Positions 30,986-38,076 of a DNA stretch of 39,684 nt are shown here, in pieces (the first letter of the stretch is position 1; each line of letters opens with the position of its first letter). Under the pieces are notes generated by a model. That model searched no databases. It was not told the origin of the DNA and was given only the letters and a program-made list of their open reading frames with translations. Origin of the DNA: a virus. The translations under genes and the position numbers were made by a program. Where the stretch lies: the IMG/VR virus record IMGVR_UViG_3300020392_000032, positions 1 to 39,684 of that record, one strand, 5' to 3'.

Positions 30986-31327
30986 TCAACGATTCAATAA
31001 TCGAATTCGATGTTTTTTTGATTTTAACCCTTCTATTACAGAATCTGCAATAATTTTTGGATCTTTATCACCACAAGTGTAAAAATCAGCAGATAAACAA
31101 CCTCTTTCTGGCCACGTATGAATAGAAACATGACTCTCTGCTAGTGCAAAGATGATTGTACACCCATGTGGTTCAAATTTATGTATTAAAGTGTTTAATA
31201 TTTTACTTTTTGAATTCATAATACCGTTAAAGAGTAAATCTTTAAGAAAAATATGATCATTTAGAGCATCAAACTCTACATCATATACCTCAAGAAGTAA
31301 ATGTTTCCCCATTTCTTGATTTTTCAT
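30986..31327 (-). CDS. speD: S-adenosylmethionine decarboxylase proenzyme, phage SpeD
   Basis: This 113-aa protein is a class 1 prokaryotic AdoMet decarboxylase proenzyme. The enzyme makes decarboxylated AdoMet, the aminopropyl donor for spermidine synthesis. It cleaves itself between Glu64 and Ser65 in LAESHVSIHTWPERG, and the serine becomes the pyruvoyl cofactor. The family residues His70 and Cys84 (FYTCGD) are in place. The first Met gives MKNQEMGKHLLLEVYDV, and the internal Met6 (MGKHLLLEV) is also a typical SpeD start. The ATG overlaps the upstream stop (ATGA). speD is a recurrent auxiliary gene of cyanomyoviruses and may raise polyamines for DNA packaging or host metabolism. No speE is present here, so host spermidine synthase would be needed. 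Confidence 0.95.
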   Translation of the reverse strand: MKNQEMGKHLLLEVYDVEFDALNDHIFLKDLLFNGIMNSKSKILNTLIHKFEPHGCTIIFALAESHVSIHTWPERGCLSADFYTCGDKDPKIIADSVIEGLKSKKHRIRLLNR

Positions 31328-31800
31328 TCTAATTCAGGTGAGATATGAATTTCCACGACTTTATAATCCTCCTCTAATACTTCTTCAAGGTAATTTTTAT
31401 CCCAATAATCATAATAATTTGTTTTTGCAAGTTTTTTTCTTGCTTCTGTTAATTCCTGACGAGGTTGACAGAGCACAAGATTGTATTTTCCGTTGCTTGT
31501 CAGCACTCCATTAATTTTTGTTTGAGATTTTCGATGATCTGCGATAAATTTAAACTTTTGATACGTTCGATTATAATCATCTACCATTGCATAAAGAAAA
31601 TCTGCATCATGTTCATCTTCGACAACGTAAATTACGACATCCCAACCAATTCTTGGACGAACTTTTCGTAATTTTTCATCCAATATAATAAAATTTGATG
31701 TTGATGCATAAGGACAAACAGCAAAATTACCTAATTCTGGTCGAATTTCAGATAATTTACGAATCCAATCTAAAATATGCTTATTTTTCTTTTCGTTCAT
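31324..31800 (-). CDS. Conserved phage hypothetical, weakly DUF1415-like
   Basis: This protein of about 158 aa starts at ATG 31800 (MNEKKNKHILDWIRKLSEIR). An upstream ATG at 31824, preceded by GGGAG, would add 8 residues but would deepen the overlap with the preceding gene from 20 to 44 nt, so I prefer the shorter form. The segment LGNFAVCPYASTSNFIIL resembles the 'N-x-C-P-[FY]-A' core of DUF1415 proteins. The resemblance is weak and the function is unknown. The C-terminus is charged and helical, with LVLCQPRQELTEARKKLAKT and an acidic tail. It overlaps speD at its stop, so it is likely part of the same operon. A link to polyamine metabolism cannot be claimed from position alone. Confidence 0.72.
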   Translation of the reverse strand: MNEKKNKHILDWIRKLSEIRPELGNFAVCPYASTSNFIILDEKLRKVRPRIGWDVVIYVVEDEHDADFLYAMVDDYNRTYQKFKFIADHRKSQTKINGVLTSNGKYNLVLCQPRQELTEARKKLAKTNYYDYWDKNYLEEVLEEDYKVVEIHISPELE

Positions 31801-32437
31801 CAGGTGTAGTCCAGAAGTAATCATCACAATCTCCCAATCTACCCCAATTTACGTCATTTTCAACTTCAAAGATTCTGGTTGATACTTTAAAATCAGGAGT
31901 TTTGACTGGATCAGGTGTCATTGAGGTATCAAAAATGCGACAACGATTATTTGGATAGAGACAATACTGTCCGTTGCGAAGTTCAATCAAATTAAATGAC
32001 TTATGTTCATCAGGCATTTCACTTGTTGAGGCATCTATTTGGTCAAAATCACCGTGATAGTTATCTAAAGTACAAATGTACTGCCCTTTTTGATTGCCAA
32101 AATGCCTTGTACGACACTCCCATTCCATTGGTGCAACAAATTGCTTGACAATCACTGTAAAATCATAGTCCATACAGTTCCAAAACTGTAAATTTACCAA
32201 GTCCATATCTGGATCTGGTTTTTTAGGGGACGATGTAAATGCTGAGATTGGTAGTTTATCATACATTGCACCATACTCAGGCAAATAAGTCTCAAAATAG
32301 AAGGCACGACCTTGTATGGATTTGGCACATACCCAAATACCTTCCACAAACTCACCTTCTCCTGATTGAAAATCAGTCAAGTATTCCTTTCTTACCCATA
32401 CTTTCTTGGTTGGTAAGTTACCAATTAGTTTTGCCAT
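31781..32437 (-). CDS. Conserved phage hypothetical protein (218 aa)
   Basis: I do not recognise a domain in this 218-aa protein. It begins MAKLIGNLPTKKVWVRKEYL and is rich in aromatic and acidic residues. It has a WVCAKSIQGRAFYFETYLPE stretch (about residues 35-54), a QFWNCMDYDFTVIVKQFVAP stretch and a YICTLDNYHGDFD segment. It ends with a NWGRLGDCDDYFWTTPDERK tail. The composition is soluble, with no signal peptide or membrane segment. Its start overlaps the end of the GNAT-like gene by 13 nt and its end overlaps the next gene, so it lies inside the operon. Similar long hypotheticals occur beside metabolic genes in T4-like cyanophages, as far as I recall. Confidence 0.75.
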   Translation of the reverse strand: MAKLIGNLPTKKVWVRKEYLTDFQSGEGEFVEGIWVCAKSIQGRAFYFETYLPEYGAMYDKLPISAFTSSPKKPDPDMDLVNLQFWNCMDYDFTVIVKQFVAPMEWECRTRHFGNQKGQYICTLDNYHGDFDQIDASTSEMPDEHKSFNLIELRNGQYCLYPNNRCRIFDTSMTPDPVKTPDFKVSTRIFEVENDVNWGRLGDCDDYFWTTPDERKEK

Positions 32438-32865
32438 TCGTCAAAGAAGTTTGAAATTTCGTATCCATCTAATTTTGATTTATAATCTGATGACTCACCC
32501 AGATAATAGTAATCATAACCTAATCTTTTATATAATGCTATCTCATTTTTATTTGCAATATGTCCTAAACTTAATTTTTTATTCTTATAATTCCAAGCAA
32601 ATTGATCTGCCCAGACACTATTAACACTCTTAAACTTGTAAGCGATTGTAAATGCTGCTAATTCATTTCCATCGTAGTATCCAATAATATCAGAATGAGG
32701 TATTTCAAACTCCTCTTTGAAAATTGGTACAGTATCTTCAAATTTTTTATAGCGAATATAATCTTTATAGATCTTTAAACAAGATTCAAAAGCAGAACTA
32801 CCAAGAATACGATAGTTATGATATTCCTGATAGTTTGTTTCTTTCAGTCGAATACGACAATACAT
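32425..32865 (-). CDS. GNAT-fold protein resembling the C-terminal domain of arginyl/leucyl-tRNA-protein transferases
   Basis: This 146-aa protein has a pattern close to the C-terminal half of ATE/Bpt aminoacyl-tRNA-protein transferases. KKLSLG (about residues 96-101) is followed by a helix ending in RLGYDYYYLG (about 114-123), then DYKSKLDGYE (127-136). In Bpt/ATE this region reads SLG ... G-L-x-Y-Y-Y-L-G-Y-Y-I ... K-M-x-Y-K. An upstream strand (GYYDGNELAAFTIAYKF) fits the acyltransferase fold. The N-terminal Cys-rich ATE domain is absent and the protein is about half the normal length. It may therefore be a general GNAT-fold N-acyltransferase rather than a true tRNA-protein transferase. Its ATG shares one base with the upstream TAA (TAATG). 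Confidence 0.6.
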   Translation of the reverse strand: MYCRIRLKETNYQEYHNYRILGSSAFESCLKIYKDYIRYKKFEDTVPIFKEEFEIPHSDIIGYYDGNELAAFTIAYKFKSVNSVWADQFAWNYKNKKLSLGHIANKNEIALYKRLGYDYYYLGESSDYKSKLDGYEISNFFDEWQN

Positions 32866-33008
32866 TATTTGTGTTTTAAGTAAATAGAAGAACGATAGTC
32901 AGTAATTAAATATCGACAATATTCATTACCATTATGATAGAAATCATCTGACATATCAACGGGTATCATACCACGTTTTCCGTTCTTATCGATTCTTTGA
33001 GGTCTCAT
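32865..33008 (-). CDS. 47-aa small phage protein
   Basis: Read from ATG at 33008 to TAA at 32865, this encodes 47 aa. It starts MRPQRIDKNGKRGMIPVDMS and then DDFYHNGNEYCRYLITDYRS, with a KHK end. The gene overlaps its neighbours on both sides: the ATG overlaps the upstream stop (ATGA) and its TAA shares a base with the next ATG (TAATG). This precise stitching, with no other gene in the gap, argues that it is real. There is no recognised domain. The mix of basic N-terminus and aromatic C-terminus suggests a small binding protein. The function is unknown. Confidence 0.7.
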   Translation of the reverse strand: MRPQRIDKNGKRGMIPVDMSDDFYHNGNEYCRYLITDYRSSIYLKHK

Positions 33009-33148
33009 TTTCCTTGTCCACGGTATCTCTTGCGAGCACCGTTACGAGAGGTTGCTGAATATTTAGAATGTTTTCCTCTTCCTTGTCTTGATTTCTTTGG
33101 TCTTGCATCCATATTATAAGATGAACCACTTAACATTCCCTTTGCCAT
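33005..33148 (-). CDS. 47-aa highly basic small phage protein
   Basis: Read from ATG at 33148 to TGA at 33005. The product begins MAKGMLSGSSYNMDARPKKS and is strongly basic (RQGRGKHSKYSATSRNGARK, RYRGQGK end), with 13 Arg or Lys residues in 47. It has no hydrophobic core, so it is likely disordered or nucleic-acid-binding. I recall proteins with this start in several T4-like cyanophages, but no assigned function. The ATG abuts the HAD gene's TAA directly, and its stop overlaps the next ATG. A DNA/RNA-binding or ribosomal-protein-like role is a composition-based guess. Confidence 0.75.
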   Translation of the reverse strand: MAKGMLSGSSYNMDARPKKSRQGRGKHSKYSATSRNGARKRYRGQGK

Positions 33149-33523
33149 TTAAATACCTAAAAATTGATTAATAATTTTATTGTTTATATTTACAGAATTT
33201 AATGCTTTATCATCTATTAAAAGATCATAATGCGTTTTTCCCATAATCAACTCATGAAAATTTACATTCCACGATTTAAGTTGAGTTATAGTTTTATTAT
33301 ACAACATATCATAAATTTTTTCAACATTACCTTCAAACTGACTCATACCACGAGAAGTATATATTTTGATGTAATTATTTTTATATAGTTCGTTTATTAA
33401 ACTGATTGTAGATTGATTTGGTTTACAATAATCATATTTGTCTGGTCCTAAATGCTCATATCCATCTGGACGATAGCATATAACATCATCTAAATCAAAC
33501 GCAATAATTTTTTGTTTGTTCAT
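33149..33523 (-). CDS. Small HAD-family phosphatase of capsule/sugar type
   Basis: This 124-aa protein has the HAD phosphatase motifs in order. Motif I is FDLDDVI, with the nucleophile Asp10 and acid/base Asp12. Motif II is IYTSRGM (Thr56/Ser57). A Lys is at about 96 (MGKTHYD), and motif III is LLIDDKA (Asp104, Asp105). There is essentially no cap domain. The 'Y-T-[SA]-R-G-M ... G-K ... D-L-x-I-D-D-K-A' pattern is the one seen in small HAD phosphatases of bacterial capsule and sugar-nucleotide clusters. It probably removes phosphate from a small sugar or polyol phosphate, but the substrate cannot be read from sequence. The gene overlaps the aldolase gene by 29 nt and directly abuts the next gene, so it is part of the cassette. 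Confidence 0.82.
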   Translation of the reverse strand: MNKQKIIAFDLDDVICYRPDGYEHLGPDKYDYCKPNQSTISLINELYKNNYIKIYTSRGMSQFEGNVEKIYDMLYNKTITQLKSWNVNFHELIMGKTHYDLLIDDKALNSVNINNKIINQFLGI

Positions 33524-34493
33524 ATAATAATTTAAGTTGTGATTTAATTCTCTTCTTTATTATTTTATCTGCATTTGGAAAATGAGTTTTGATATTTTGT
33601 AGAAATTTTTTATTTGAAAGTACATAATGACATGAAGTCATAATTAATTGTTCCTTTGAGATACGATTAACATCTTGAACCCATTTTTTCCACTTTCCAG
33701 AATTATAACATATTTGATACAGAGTTTCAAACAAGTCATTATTATTACGACATCTTTCCAGATAATACTCTGATTCTATTTGACCAAATTCAGGAGCGAT
33801 ATTAATTGCATCTAAACCTGTTTCAAATCTCATCTCTACATCAAAAGAGTCAATCAAGTAGTCTCCATTATGTTCTTTACTCATCAATCCATAATTTTTA
33901 ACCACCTTAATAAACTTATTTAATCTTTTGCGACTAAAATTACCAATGTTGGTTCTAGTCGATAAATCAAGACCTGTTCCTGATTGAACCACTGCATATT
34001 TAATTTGTTTAAATTGTTTCTTAGATAGTGAGTTAGACAGAGTATCTAAGAAATGATTCAATTCATTTGGTTCGTATTTAAATATTGCCTCTTCAGTACC
34101 TACCTCATACATAATATCTGGATTTTCTCTTGAAAGATTTTGAATAATTTTTATTGTTTGTAAAGCAGCATCCTTCATGCTCTTACAAACACGAAAAGGA
34201 TCAATATGAATCAAATCAAAATATTTTATATCACTCAAAAATGAATCATATCCATCATCTTTTTCTGCACCCTGCAATTCACCACCATGATCTCTACAAA
34301 TAATTGCCTTTGATTTCTTACTTCTCACGTACTTCATAAAAGTTGCAGTATTCCAATGATTTACGTAACCGCCAGAAAAATCAATTTGTCTTCTTGAGGG
34401 TATGAATCCAATCAAATGTTTATGACTATGTTTAATTACAGAGTCAACAACATTCTTACTCATTGGTCCAATATAATATTTTGGAAATTTCAT
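33495..34493 (-). CDS. TIM-barrel aldolase-like protein of the KbaZ/GatZ (tagatose-bisphosphate aldolase) family
   Basis: This 332-aa protein aligns by eye with E. coli KbaZ/GatZ, class II tagatose-bisphosphate aldolase subunits. IDFSGGYVNHWNTATFMKYV (about residues 37-56) matches 'Q-V-D-Q-F-G-G-Y-T-G ... D-F'. AIICRDHGGE matches 'L-I-L-G-G-D-H-L-G-P', FDLIHIDPFRVC matches 'K-K-I-H-L-D-C-S-M-S-C', and YEVGTEEA matches 'Y-V-I-G-T-E-V'. VVQSGTGLD and KEHNGDYL match the later 'V-V-Q-P-G-V' and 'E-A-H-S-T-D-Y'. The His of DHGG and other residues may bind a metal or phosphate. It probably performs an aldol reaction on a sugar phosphate in the cytoplasm. KbaZ itself supports a KbaY catalytic subunit, which is absent here. 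The ATG overlaps the upstream stop (ATGA). Confidence 0.72.
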   Translation of the reverse strand: MKFPKYYIGPMSKNVVDSVIKHSHKHLIGFIPSRRQIDFSGGYVNHWNTATFMKYVRSKKSKAIICRDHGGELQGAEKDDGYDSFLSDIKYFDLIHIDPFRVCKSMKDAALQTIKIIQNLSRENPDIMYEVGTEEAIFKYEPNELNHFLDTLSNSLSKKQFKQIKYAVVQSGTGLDLSTRTNIGNFSRKRLNKFIKVVKNYGLMSKEHNGDYLIDSFDVEMRFETGLDAINIAPEFGQIESEYYLERCRNNNDLFETLYQICYNSGKWKKWVQDVNRISKEQLIMTSCHYVLSNKKFLQNIKTHFPNADKIIKKRIKSQLKLLYEQTKNYCV

Positions 34494-36037
34494 TGAAGAC
34501 TCAAGAACAAATTATACTTACCAAAGTAGTATAAAAACATATCAAGTGGATATTCATGTAATGGTGACATGTTTAACCAGATAATTGAGGTTAATATTTC
34601 AATTTTATTATAATCAATATTATTTTGATAGCAAAATTTGATTAATTGATTTTTACAATCTAATAATGTCTTCTTAACAAGAACATCACACTGAATATCA
34701 GTTCCCTTTTTAATTGTAAACTGATTATTTGATAATACTTGATGATTTAAAATTAAATTATGGTTTAATTTTGCAAGATCATAGTGCATATCACCTGCAT
34801 CAATACTGCCATTGAAGTCTTGTCTCCAATCAATAAGTATAAATTTGCCATTTTGATATAAAATATTGTCTAAAATAAAATCTCCATGAAATCCAGTCGG
34901 TTTTTGACCAATTATAGAGTCAAAATCAATTGAACTTAACATTGAATTGACCGAGGGTATCATAATTCCATTGATTTTTTCACTTTGATCACTTAAATTG
35001 TACTTGTCAAGAAATTGATTTACTCTTAAATGAGTTTTTTTCTGATAAAATGACAATGCATTCGTTTGAAATGAAGAATCTGTCTTACTTACCCATAAAT
35101 TTTGACATGACCAGTCTAATAAATTACTAAATTGGTCTAAATTAACTCCATCAGCGAGTAAATCTGCTTGAATGAAACGATATTTGTAAAAATTTTCCGT
35201 GCTCTCAACAATTTGAGGAACTAAACCATTTAAATTTTGTGTTCTTGCGATTCGATCAGAGCAAATCTTCTTATTTGCAAAAAATTTGATGACATAATCG
35301 TTAACTATGAAGATATTTTCATTATCTTTGTCTAAAACATGGATCGTTCCTTTCAAAATTGACCTTGTTCTCTTCAGAGAATCCATATTTCCCATGTCAT
35401 ACCATTCTTTTTCAACAAAAACTTTAAAATTATTCATTCGTCGAATGATATGACAGTCACTTAAGTCACTACTTCGATTTGAAGATAGAATTTCATGACA
35501 ATATTGCCAAAAAGTTTGATAATCATGAATACCAGATACACCCACATAGATGTAATCGAAGTTCTGCTCACCCTTTTCATTAAATGAGATGATCTCATCA
35601 TTTACACAATTAATTGTACGGTATGACTGACTGTAACCGCCTGTACCACCGATAGACCAGTTCGTAGTAAAATCAATGTCATCAACATAATTGTCTCTTA
35701 GAATCGTGTCACAGGCATGGAAGATAAAAGGACACTGTAATTCCTGTTCACAATGAGAGATTGAATATAATAAACTACTTCCTTCACCCATATAATTGTC
35801 AACTTCAACATAAGTAATTGTTCTTTCAGGATGTGCCAGATTTAAATATTGTCTAACATGAGATCCATAATGACCCAGAGTTACAACGAACTCAACATTC
35901 TCATCATATGAATCAATAATATATGATATCGCTGGTTTATCTCCAATTCTAACCAGACTTTTATTTGTAAACTTAGTCAGATTACCAAGTCTGGAACCAA
36001 GACCACTGGTTGTGAGTAATACTTTATATTCTGCCAT
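34490..36037 (-). CDS. Bifunctional nucleotidyltransferase-kinase (NTP_transferase + choline/aminoglycoside-kinase-like)
   Basis: This is a fusion of two enzyme domains (about 515 aa from ATG 36037; a TTG further upstream is less likely as a start). Residues about 4-230 form a sugar-phosphate or choline-phosphate nucleotidyltransferase. The pyrophosphorylase loop is SGLGSRLGNLTKFTNKSLVR then IGDKP, and the metal-site region is IFHACDTIL. Residues about 240-515 form a kinase of the choline/aminoglycoside phosphotransferase type, with the Brenner motif HGDFILDNIL (His384-Asp386) and FILIDWRQDF, the metal-binding IDW. One protein can thus phosphorylate a small sugar or alcohol and load it on CTP, GTP or UTP. 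The overlaps with neighbours fit coupled translation. The substrate is unknown; LicA/LicC-like choline activation is an alternative. Confidence 0.82.
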   Translation of the reverse strand: MAEYKVLLTTSGLGSRLGNLTKFTNKSLVRIGDKPAISYIIDSYDENVEFVVTLGHYGSHVRQYLNLAHPERTITYVEVDNYMGEGSSLLYSISHCEQELQCPFIFHACDTILRDNYVDDIDFTTNWSIGGTGGYSQSYRTINCVNDEIISFNEKGEQNFDYIYVGVSGIHDYQTFWQYCHEILSSNRSSDLSDCHIIRRMNNFKVFVEKEWYDMGNMDSLKRTRSILKGTIHVLDKDNENIFIVNDYVIKFFANKKICSDRIARTQNLNGLVPQIVESTENFYKYRFIQADLLADGVNLDQFSNLLDWSCQNLWVSKTDSSFQTNALSFYQKKTHLRVNQFLDKYNLSDQSEKINGIMIPSVNSMLSSIDFDSIIGQKPTGFHGDFILDNILYQNGKFILIDWRQDFNGSIDAGDMHYDLAKLNHNLILNHQVLSNNQFTIKKGTDIQCDVLVKKTLLDCKNQLIKFCYQNNIDYNKIEILTSIIWLNMSPLHEYPLDMFLYYFGKYNLFLSLQ

Positions 36038-37022
36038 ACTTATCTTCAAGTCTTACAATATCATCTTCGCCAAAATATGTACCTAACTGCACTTCAATAA
36101 AGACTGCATCCACATCACCGTTATTAATTGGTTGATGTTTGGATAATCGAGGTATCTGTATCGCATCACCAACACCATAAGTCTTATAGATGTCATTTAA
36201 ACGAACTGTTAAAGTGCCTTGAATGATTACCCAGACTTCACGACGTTGATAATGATACTGATATGATGGTGACTCACCAGGACGTATTACAATCTTCTTG
36301 ACTTTTGTATAGTCTTCATCAACTAAGTTGAGATATGAACCCCATGGTTTACTGACTTCTTCGATTGATGAAGTTAAATTTTTTGATAGTTCCAATAATT
36401 GTTCGCTTTTCAAATACTTACACATTGTAAAAATTGACTGACCCAAGTTTGAATTATGAATAAAGGTTGAATTATCATAATCCTGCATATAGTGAATTGG
36501 TACATTTCTCTCCTCTAAACGATGATTGATGGCATGAGTGATTCCTCCTGTTCTTTGTAGAATCAAAGCAGCATCAATAAATTCATTTAAATACTGACTT
36601 GGAAAAACAAAGAGATTATCATCACAGTTTCCAGAATCATGGCGAATTGGTATATTAAATGATTTCTTATCAATATTAACCTCATCAAATCTCTTCAACC
36701 ATCTTAAATCAGGACGAGTAATTATCACTAAATCATATGTTTTGTCTTGTTGAAGAATTTGCTTTGCAAGACTTTGATGATGTTCGAGTTGAGCGTTCCA
36801 AGTCGAGGAGTTGCGATGTGAATCGTCAATATAAGAATAAGATCGAATCTCTAGTTGACTTCGATAAAACTCCTCAATCTCACTTTCTCCCTCATAGGTG
36901 CTAAAAAAGAAATCAATGTCATCAAAACAATCATAAAGCATTGAACGATGATTCTCAAATGTATTCTTGACGAGCCACAGCGGATGATTAAAAGTTCCTT
37001 TATAACAAATGGCAACTTTCAT
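36024..37022 (-). CDS. Fusion: glycan-type N-terminal domain + mannose-6-phosphate-isomerase-like cupin
   Basis: The C-terminal residues about 224-332 are a type II phosphomannose-isomerase cupin. They contain SKPWGSYLNL, KKIVIRPGESPSYQYHYQRR, VWVIIQGTLTV, DAIQIPRLSKHQPINNGDVD and FIEVQLGTYFGEDDIVRLED. The last block (IEVQ-x-G-x-Y-x-GEDDI-[VI]-R) is diagnostic. Among metal ligands, Gln255, His257, Glu262 and His296 are present, but the usual second His of the H-x-H pair is Gln259. Residues about 1-220 contain VAICYKGTFNH, DIDFFFSTYE and LVIITRPDLRW, then DDNLFVFPSQYL, a pattern found in uncharacterised glycan-cluster proteins. Whether this half transfers sugar is uncertain. The gene overlaps neighbours at both ends. 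Confidence 0.78.
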   Translation of the reverse strand: MKVAICYKGTFNHPLWLVKNTFENHRSMLYDCFDDIDFFFSTYEGESEIEEFYRSQLEIRSYSYIDDSHRNSSTWNAQLEHHQSLAKQILQQDKTYDLVIITRPDLRWLKRFDEVNIDKKSFNIPIRHDSGNCDDNLFVFPSQYLNEFIDAALILQRTGGITHAINHRLEERNVPIHYMQDYDNSTFIHNSNLGQSIFTMCKYLKSEQLLELSKNLTSSIEEVSKPWGSYLNLVDEDYTKVKKIVIRPGESPSYQYHYQRREVWVIIQGTLTVRLNDIYKTYGVGDAIQIPRLSKHQPINNGDVDAVFIEVQLGTYFGEDDIVRLEDKYGRI

Positions 37023-37183
37023 TCTTCCTCCTCTTTGACTGGTTCATAAGTAATTTGATTTGCAATATTTTCTCCTGTGACATATTGTTCAACAGCATAG
37101 TCTTCAAGTCTGTCAAAGAGTTCTGACTCAGTGACATTCCAGAAAACTACTTTACCACTTCTTAATATGTTATATCGTGTCAT
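37019..37183 (-). CDS. 54-aa small conserved phage protein
   Basis: Read from ATG at 37183 to TGA at 37019, this encodes 54 aa. It begins MTRYNILRSGKVVFWNVTES and continues ELFDRLEDYAVEQYVTGENI, with an acidic KEEEE end. The ATG overlaps the TAA of the glycosyltransferase (TAATG), and its stop overlaps the next ATG (ATGA), so it fills an otherwise unexplained 160-nt gap exactly. I recall small proteins of this kind ('...E-L-F-D-x-[LM]-E-D-x-A-x-x-[FY]-Y-x-T-G') in other T4-like cyanophages. There is no known function or catalytic motif. Confidence 0.78.
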   Translation of the reverse strand: MTRYNILRSGKVVFWNVTESELFDRLEDYAVEQYVTGENIANQITYEPVKEEEE

Positions 37184-38076
37184 TAAATTATGCGTGTCTT
37201 CTCATGACCGACTCTGATACGAGGATCACACCAGATTTCAAATCCTGCCTCTTTTGCATCTAGACAGAAAGATACGTCCTCACCGCACATATCCTGAACC
37301 TCTCCTGATTCAAATATCTGCATCTTTGGTGCAAACCATGGATATGTCATCTGTTCATTTTCAAAGACTCCATTTTTAATGAGTAACCAACCAAAACCTG
37401 TATAGTCAACAGTGAAAGGTTTCTTTCTCTTACTGATACTATCAATTGTTTCATGATTCATCACACCACCATTGGTACGAAAATCTTCTTCATCTAACCA
37501 GTGAGCGACTGACGTTGTTTTTCCATCTTCGGTGCAGTACCAACCTGCAACAATTGAACGTTCCTTTGTAGTATCAATCTTTAAACGATGTCCAACAAAC
37601 TTAGTTGCATCTGATCCATCTTCATTCTTAACAACTTCTCCCTTATCATTCTTCATGACTTCTGTGACTGCTTCCTTTTCAACTGCGTCTGCTGGAATTG
37701 CATTCAGTATTAACTGATAGAACTTCTCTGTATTGAATACAATATCTGAGTCAATCCAGACCTGATAATCATATTTGAGTTTACCATCCCATGGTAACTG
37801 ATTTGGTCCACGAAGCACGTTTGCTCCTAAACATTTGCATCTTGCAAAGTTGACCATTGATGAATAATCTTGTGAGATTTGAATCGCTGCTCCTGATTGA
37901 ACTAAGTCAAATGAGAGTGATACAAAACTTTTTAGAAAATTATAAGATACTCCTCGACCAGGTAGACAGAAAACAAACGTCCTGCCTCTTACTAATTGTC
38001 TCGCTAATTCATAATCCCATTCAGGTGCTTTTTTTGCTACAGGAGACTTTGCTTTTACTGTAAATCCTTTCGCCAT
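37183..38076 (-). CDS. GT-A-type glycosyltransferase-like protein
   Basis: This 297-aa protein has the features of a GT-A-fold glycosyltransferase. It has an N-terminal strand with FVFCLPGRGVSYNFLKSFVS (about residues 35-54), an ARCKCLGANV helix, and the nucleotide-sugar/metal site YQVWIDSDIVF (Asp109-Ser-Asp111, a DxD motif). A late GEDVSFCLDAKEAGFEIW acceptor/ED block follows, then RVGHEK. Proteins like this are frequent in T4-like cyanophages and are usually listed as glycosyltransferases or hypotheticals. A sugar made by the downstream cassette could be its donor, but that is inference. A consensus sigma70-type promoter lies just upstream, overlapping the end of the AbrB-like gene. There is no signal peptide. 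Possible acceptors are virion proteins, DNA or host surface glycans. Confidence 0.78.
   Translation of the reverse strand: MAKGFTVKAKSPVAKKAPEWDYELARQLVRGRTFVFCLPGRGVSYNFLKSFVSLSFDLVQSGAAIQISQDYSSMVNFARCKCLGANVLRGPNQLPWDGKLKYDYQVWIDSDIVFNTEKFYQLILNAIPADAVEKEAVTEVMKNDKGEVVKNEDGSDATKFVGHRLKIDTTKERSIVAGWYCTEDGKTTSVAHWLDEEDFRTNGGVMNHETIDSISKRKKPFTVDYTGFGWLLIKNGVFENEQMTYPWFAPKMQIFESGEVQDMCGEDVSFCLDAKEAGFEIWCDPRIRVGHEKTRII

Follow-up and report, generated by a model that had tools for sequence, protein, structure and literature searches.

In the AmgK-MurU and LicA-LicC pairs, an APH-type kinase is joined by an NTP_transferase-type enzyme, and in the GDP/ADP-heptose pathway (GmhA, HddA/HldE, GmhB, HddC) an isomerase, an anomeric kinase, a distal phosphatase and a nucleotidyltransferase follow a logic like that of the gene block described here. 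The GatZ/KbaZ family is known from sugar catabolism. Long annotated as aldolase chaperones, GatZ and KbaZ have been reported as C4 epimerases that convert fructose-6-phosphate to tagatose-6-phosphate (PMC11907403). Stand-alone mannose-6-phosphate isomerase (MPI) cupins have been described in cyanophages (PMC9602691), and Sullivan et al. 2010 (PMC3037559) counted the cyanophage T4-GC 304-307 module among lipopolysaccharide ('LPS') genes. In this study, we analyzed a window of 39,684 nucleotides (positions 1 to 39,684 of the IMG/VR virus record IMGVR_UViG_3300020392_000032), in which a cassette of four overlapping genes, CUP, NTK, ALD and HAD, lies between T4-GC 102/103 and gp25. This cassette is probably a nucleotide-sugar module of a cargo site, which makes a nucleoside diphosphate (NDP)-sugar for a virion or host-surface glycan. 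Its features are the following:

36408..37022, minus strand: GT-A-fold (glycosyltransferase-like) N-terminal domain of CUP, in the same open reading frame (ORF) as the cupin (AlphaFold2, Foldseek, separate gene in relatives)
36024..36380, minus strand: cupin domain of CUP, type-II phosphomannose isomerase (PMI) kind, residues about 215-332 of the ORF (PF01050 match, conserved motif)
34490..36037, minus strand: NTK, N-terminal sugar-1-phosphate/LicC-type nucleotidyltransferase plus C-terminal APH/choline-kinase-type kinase, 515 amino acids from ATG 36037 (profiles, motifs, conserved overlap)
33495..34493, minus strand: ALD, GatZ/KbaZ-like TIM-barrel enzyme of 332 amino acids, predicted metal-dependent ketose-phosphate C4 epimerase or aldolase (profiles, structure prediction, residue mapping)
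33149..33523, minus strand: HAD phosphatase, EcbF/BcbF-like, 124 amino acids, with DLDD motif, YTSRG and LIDDKA (TIGR01689, PHROG and PDB matches)

Six ORFs, all on the minus strand, fill positions 33149-38076, and the genes, positions and overlaps given in an initial annotation of the window were confirmed: a glycosyltransferase (GT; 38076-37183), a gene of 54 amino acids (37183-37019), CUP (37022-36024), NTK (36049-34490), ALD (34493-33495) and HAD (33523-33149). GT and the 54-amino-acid gene overlap by 1 base, the latter and CUP by 4, CUP and NTK by 26, NTK and ALD by 4, and ALD and HAD by 29. The NTK ORF opens at TTG 36049; its likely true start is ATG 36037, which is backed by relatives and by a conserved overlap with CUP, then of 14 bases. 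The 14/4/29-base pattern is nearly unchanged in viral relatives with the four genes side by side, and because it recurs in nearly all such loci, the overlaps are not due to chance.

NTK and ALD profiles used as independent baits gave 389 and 196 viral loci, of which the best 80 of each were kept; the sets overlap in contigs and are phylogenetically non-independent. Among 77 newly fetched NTK loci, ALD was found downstream in all 75 with enough sequence (the other two end too early), and NTK was found upstream in 74 of 74 such ALD loci (77 in total, three ending too early). CUP is upstream of or fused to NTK everywhere except in three loci at contig edges and in one with a distance of 1.65 kb. 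The genes of the block stay linked in well over a hundred viral sequences, and the block is found in many aquatic phage contigs. The earlier proposal that these genes form one pathway is supported, since CUP, NTK and ALD do occur together elsewhere and are nearly always linked.

In close viral relatives, the order CUP-NTK-ALD-HAD is found wherever the contig is long enough, in some cases with a TylF-type gene inserted. These loci occur in two settings, the gp25 site (L003-L011, L034, L035) and long glycan gene clusters (L012-L028, L036), where neighbors include nucleotide-sugar epimerases, dehydratases such as GDP-mannose dehydratase, glycosyltransferases (GT2/6/10/11/25/47/61), FkbM and methyltransferases. 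Two of the larger glycan-cluster contigs (98.6 and 215 kb) carry T4-like gp23, 82% and 84% identical to cyanophage gp23, so these contigs are phage DNA too and a mislabelling of host DNA was rejected. Listeria 'phage' matches came from unverified contigs of wastewater assemblies and were left aside in judging the cassette. The TylF-type methyltransferase gene lies between NTK and ALD (L013, L016-L018, L023 and others), and loci bearing it often have a HAD-nucleotidyltransferase fusion (456 amino acids) after the HAD gene. CUP and NTK form a single protein in 15 ALD loci (L232, L239, L242-L244, L248, L258, L268, L269, L271, L277, L279-L281, L283), mostly with a shikimate-dehydrogenase-N-domain-like gene between NTK and the KbaZ-like gene, possibly a reductase step.

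In cells, NTK is rare (8 of 380 and 1 of 395 genomes in the sampled groups). The phage order was found in L053 and L055, NTK-ALD-CUP in L290/L291 and ALD-cupin-NTK in L079, while cupin, nucleotidyltransferase and kinase are fused in L048 and L052. Altered gene orders and fusions in cells thereby argue for functional coupling. Pairwise ratios of nonsynonymous to synonymous substitutions (dN/dS) for the four genes are mostly 0.05-0.18, the highest being 0.34 for HAD, and all four are under purifying selection. Their distance matrices correlate (Mantel r 0.46-0.78, p 0.0005), which may in part reflect common phage ancestry.

Profile searches supported the enzyme families initially assigned, for ALD by way of the PF08013 matches of its relatives. 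Only the C-terminal third of CUP matches MannoseP_isomer (PF01050; 2.6e-24, 86.1 bits versus a cut-off of 23.6). In the alignment, the motif G(X)5QxH(X)4E(X)6G and a later His are kept across relatives, and all metal ligands of QxH...E...H, which we take to be the AlgA/ManC cupin motif, are present. The gene had been described simply as an isomerase-like cupin; its PMI-type cupin stands, and the N-terminal GT-A domain had been overlooked. This domain is assigned to the GT-A fold from an AlphaFold2 model with a predicted local distance difference test score (pLDDT) of 83.4 and Foldseek matches to GT6/GT8 folds (6.7e-6); a PDB profile search with it gave nothing useful. Since it is a separate gene of 206-210 amino acids in L003-L011, CUP of the window is a fusion.

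Direct Pfam, NCBIfam and PDB sequence searches with ALD gave no family match, including PF08013. Among its relatives, 12 of 28 match GatZ_KbaZ-like PF08013 (best 5.6e-19), and an ALD profile matched the GatZ-family structure 2fiq in the PDB (1.2e-6), the numbering of which fits the published GatZ residues. The AlphaFold2 model (pLDDT 90.6) matches class II aldolases (1gvf, 2.5e-10) and UxaE/tagatose epimerases in Foldseek. For GatZ, metal ligands H88, E171 and H257, base D87 and further residues E44 and K279 have been described (PMC11907403). By alignment, H69, E134, H208 and D68 of ALD correspond to the ligands and base, respectively, and are invariant in 28 sequences. The 'aldol reaction' of the initial annotation was corrected to 'C4 epimerase or aldolase': ALD is as likely to be an epimerase as an aldolase, and the epimerase is preferred because of the conversion of fructose-6-phosphate to tagatose-6-phosphate reported for GatZ and KbaZ (PMC11907403).

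A cyanobacterial host as obvious source of ALD was rejected, since a genome-collection scan with the invariant motifs gave relatives of at most about 50% identity, and the best 80 of 160 that were kept included no cyanobacterial one. In marine Flavobacteriia (L039-L051), a lone KbaZ-like gene 45-50% identical to ALD of the window occurs without NTK; in many genomes, it occupies a conserved chromosomal site adjoining genes for a beta-lactamase-family protein and a 2Fe-2S/4Fe-4S iron-sulfur protein. L056-L118, mostly from Firmicutes, represent a KbaZ-like branch of about 425 amino acids in phosphotransferase system (PTS) operons with EIIA/EIIC, with a HAD gene too in L061. An Enterococcus locus that was scanned has a HAD gene beside the ALD homologue as well as PTS EIIA/EIIC genes. 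The PTS neighbors of the Firmicute homologues favor a sugar-phosphate substrate.

In Pfam, NTK matches APH (3.9e-4, just under the cut-off) and NTP_transferase (6.6e-3, also under it), and in NCBIfam Arch_glmU (6e-11). The kinase motif HGDxxxxN and metal Asp (H384-G385-D386, N391, D403) are invariant in relatives, as are GxGxR, Lys and metal Asp of the nucleotidyltransferase (G12, G14, R16, K26, D110, D214); both sets hold down to about 30% identity. Closest to the nucleotidyltransferase domain among solved sequences are glucose-1-phosphate thymidylyltransferase and LicC (1jyk), which score equally well. HAD matches TIGR01689 (1.4e-7, 31.5 bits versus a curated cut-off of 162), phrog_1238 (3.3e-24) and the 'capsule biosynthesis protein' 9iqw in the PDB (3e-7). 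With its motifs intact, it is related to the EcbF/BcbF capsule phosphatases (TIGR01689) but scores outside that family. HAD is directly 3′ of ALD in fewer than half of the loci, chiefly in the clade of the window.

Enzyme families, intact catalytic motifs, linkage and purifying selection are the basis of the proposed pathway, from which we infer the order of steps, substrate, nucleotide, product and acceptor. It would start from a host ketose phosphate, with fructose-6-phosphate as the leading candidate. ALD would epimerize fructose-6-phosphate at C4 to tagatose-6-phosphate, and the PMI-type cupin would convert the ketose phosphate to an aldose phosphate, which would be talose-6-phosphate if the mannose-like C2 geometry is retained. 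The kinase half of NTK could then add the anomeric phosphate, HAD could remove the distal phosphate, and the nucleotidyltransferase half could form the NDP-sugar. Transfer to a virion or host-surface glycan would be due to a GT-A enzyme, namely the N-terminal domain of CUP, the backbone GT or both.

Several points weigh against this pathway. A characterized close homologue was found for none of the enzymes, and ALD is too remote for its own sequence to match named families. Most of the distant loci lack a HAD gene, and the HAD step may be supplied elsewhere or be unnecessary. Also, E44 and K279 of GatZ are replaced in ALD by I31 and N231, so the substrate of ALD may differ from that of GatZ. 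This loss would suit a true aldolase building a longer or branched C5-C8 sugar from a dihydroxyacetone phosphate-like part and an aldehyde, for which class II aldolases as the best solved folds for ALD also speak. However, the metal ligands of ALD are the His/Glu/His of GatZ, whereas class II aldolases use three histidines (PMC11907403), and a second, catalytic KbaY/GatY subunit was not found near ALD; the aldolase is rated as the less likely reading.

Likewise, APH-family kinases can act on non-anomeric hydroxyls, as in LicA-like enzymes, which would break the hexose-1-phosphate logic. A LicA-like kinase and a LicC-like domain could then yield a cytidine diphosphate (CDP)-linked open-chain sugar or polyol. 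The best PDB matches of the nucleotidyltransferase domain include LicC (1jyk), the shikimate-dehydrogenase-like gene of the distant variant is a possible reductase, and CDP-6-D-fructose/CDP-6-glucitol of Campylobacter HS:5 capsules set a precedent (PMC10918830). But glucose-1-phosphate thymidylyltransferase matches this domain just as well, a reductase is absent from the window and close relatives, and the obligate PMI-type cupin fits an aldose product better; we therefore regard a CDP-polyol or CDP-ketose as unlikely. That the genes act singly on central carbon metabolism, with the cupin as mannose-6-phosphate isomerase, ALD diverting fructose-6-phosphate and no nucleotide sugar being formed, recalls the stand-alone MPI genes of cyanophages discussed along with carbon metabolism (PMC9602691), but is very improbable given the obligately linked kinase-nucleotidyltransferase fusion and the glycan-cluster contexts. 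Least credible is non-functional or packaging 'stuffer' DNA, which Sullivan et al. 2010 (PMC3037559) themselves considered as a caveat for the LPS clusters of cyanophages and which is compatible with a cargo hot spot, but is contradicted by purifying selection on all four genes, conserved overlaps and catalytic residues, and near-universal linkage.

The nucleotide-sugar pathway is thus preferred, and the cassette most likely yields an activated, unusual sugar for the virus or host surface. We tentatively suggest, at somewhat below even odds, a pathway wide in phages and present in few of the cellular genomes covered here, in which a GatZ/KbaZ-family epimerase was recruited for an NDP-activated rare hexose (such as NDP-D-talose or another tagatose-derived sugar) and a glycan absent from the hosts. 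Searches of open-access papers turned up no GatZ/KbaZ-family enzyme that had been placed in nucleotide-sugar synthesis, and literature searches for a phage pathway for CDP-fructose, talose or tagatose yielded nothing. With this model, a hypothetical cyanophage cargo block becomes a defined pathway of three to four enzymes that is open to testing, with a likely biosynthetic role for the GatZ/KbaZ family. It also offers a concrete route into the long-open question of what cyanophage 'LPS' gene clusters produce and whether virion or host surface is decorated.

Upstream of the cassette, the following features were found:

37183..38076, minus strand: backbone GT-A-type glycosyltransferase, phrog_1574 / T4-GC 102, with DSD motif (PHROG match, phage neighborhoods)
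37019..37183, minus strand: backbone gene of 54 amino acids, phrog_3252, located like T4-GC 103 and bordering the cargo site on its 5′ side (PHROG match, phage neighborhoods)
38099..38127, minus strand: sigma70-like promoter TTGACA-N17-TATGAT, 5′ of the backbone GT (motif scan versus shuffles)

The initial annotation had combined five enzyme genes and a small gene into one cassette with its own sigma70-like promoter. Four of the ORFs hold as members, and the cassette proper is CUP-NTK-ALD-HAD; GT and the 54-amino-acid gene were rejected, as they border the cassette but are not carried along with it. GT (phrog_1574, E 1.5e-110) is present in 103 phage records, almost all cyanophages, and the cassette in just one. 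In P-SSM2, P-TIM68 and S-SM2, the same GT and small gene precede unrelated cargo (2-oxoglutarate-Fe(II) oxygenase, CP12 and ferredoxin, respectively) and then gp25, so both genes mark the left edge of a cargo site. The gp46-gp25 region was listed as a hot spot by Sullivan et al. 2010 (PMC3037559). The backbone GT is a possible user of the cassette product. The promoter box (38127-38099) is indeed present 5′ of GT, with 11 of 12 consensus matches, and is one of the best three among 59 promoter-like matches in the window; with 42.8 ± 6.2 matches in shuffles, it is only suggestive.

Next to the cassette site are gp25 and gp6, the latter 63% identical to P-SSM2 gp6; together with speD and further cyanophage cargo, this gene content marks the window as a fragment of a T4-like cyanophage (Kyanoviridae-type), a virus of marine cyanobacteria. 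The cargo site of the cassette is also occupied by speD (30986-31327, minus strand) and a phrog_3704 'ferredoxin' gene (31781-32437, minus strand), and the matching site of S-SM2 holds a gene annotated as ferredoxin. The ORF 32425-32865 (minus strand, 146 amino acids) resembles the C-terminal domain of arginyl-tRNA-protein transferase (PF04377 1.1e-4, slightly under the cut-off) and had zero matches in the phage collection. A very basic, K/R-rich ORF of about 47 amino acids (33005-33148, minus strand) starts with an ATG immediately after the HAD stop codon; transcription therefore probably runs on beyond the cassette.

Among known systems, GatZ/KbaZ (PF08013) share fold, H/E/H metal ligands and base D with ALD of the window, which in contrast falls under the family models, lacks equivalents of E44 and K279, is shorter and is linked to nucleotide-sugar rather than catabolic genes. 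The cupin exceeds the PF01050 cut-off with all ligands kept, like type II PMI (C-terminal domain of ManC/AlgA), but its nucleotidyltransferase partner is unlike GDP-mannose pyrophosphorylase; it is only 35% identical to the monofunctional MPI of cyanophage S-SCSM1 and is fused to a GT-A domain. NTK differs from the AmgK-MurU and LicA-LicC pairs in being one polypeptide, in its nucleotidyltransferase-kinase order and in the obligate linkage to a PMI cupin and a KbaZ-like enzyme. Compared with the heptose pathway, different families are used, as Pfam and NCBIfam searches of the window gave no GmhA (SIS) isomerase and no GHMP or PfkB kinase. An S-SM2 cluster (L129, 40-5652) has a double nucleotidyltransferase, GT61, an AraD-type class II aldolase/adducin gene, two HADs and a cupin; the names 'phosphoheptose isomerase' for the two HADs and 'cysteine dioxygenase' for the cupin look misannotated.

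The initial statement that no phage pathway with this exact set had been described stands in the literature searched, but cyanophage isolates have an analogous module. T4-GC 304-307 (P-SSM2 309-312, S-CAM3, S-SM2), from the same phage group, combines nucleotidyltransferase, kinase, EcbF-like HAD and cupin in one overlapping row as in the window. In P-SSM2 309-312, HAD (36% identical) and cupin are homologous to those of the window, whereas kinase and nucleotidyltransferase are not, being PfkB and CTP_transf_like instead of APH and NTP_transferase. The module also lacks a KbaZ-like enzyme, has a Cupin_2 cupin about 25% like that of the window and occupies another genomic site. The logic of the cassette is thus already known from the kinase/nucleotidyltransferase/HAD/cupin sets of isolate cyanophages, and the version with GatZ/KbaZ and APH/NTP_transferase is new.

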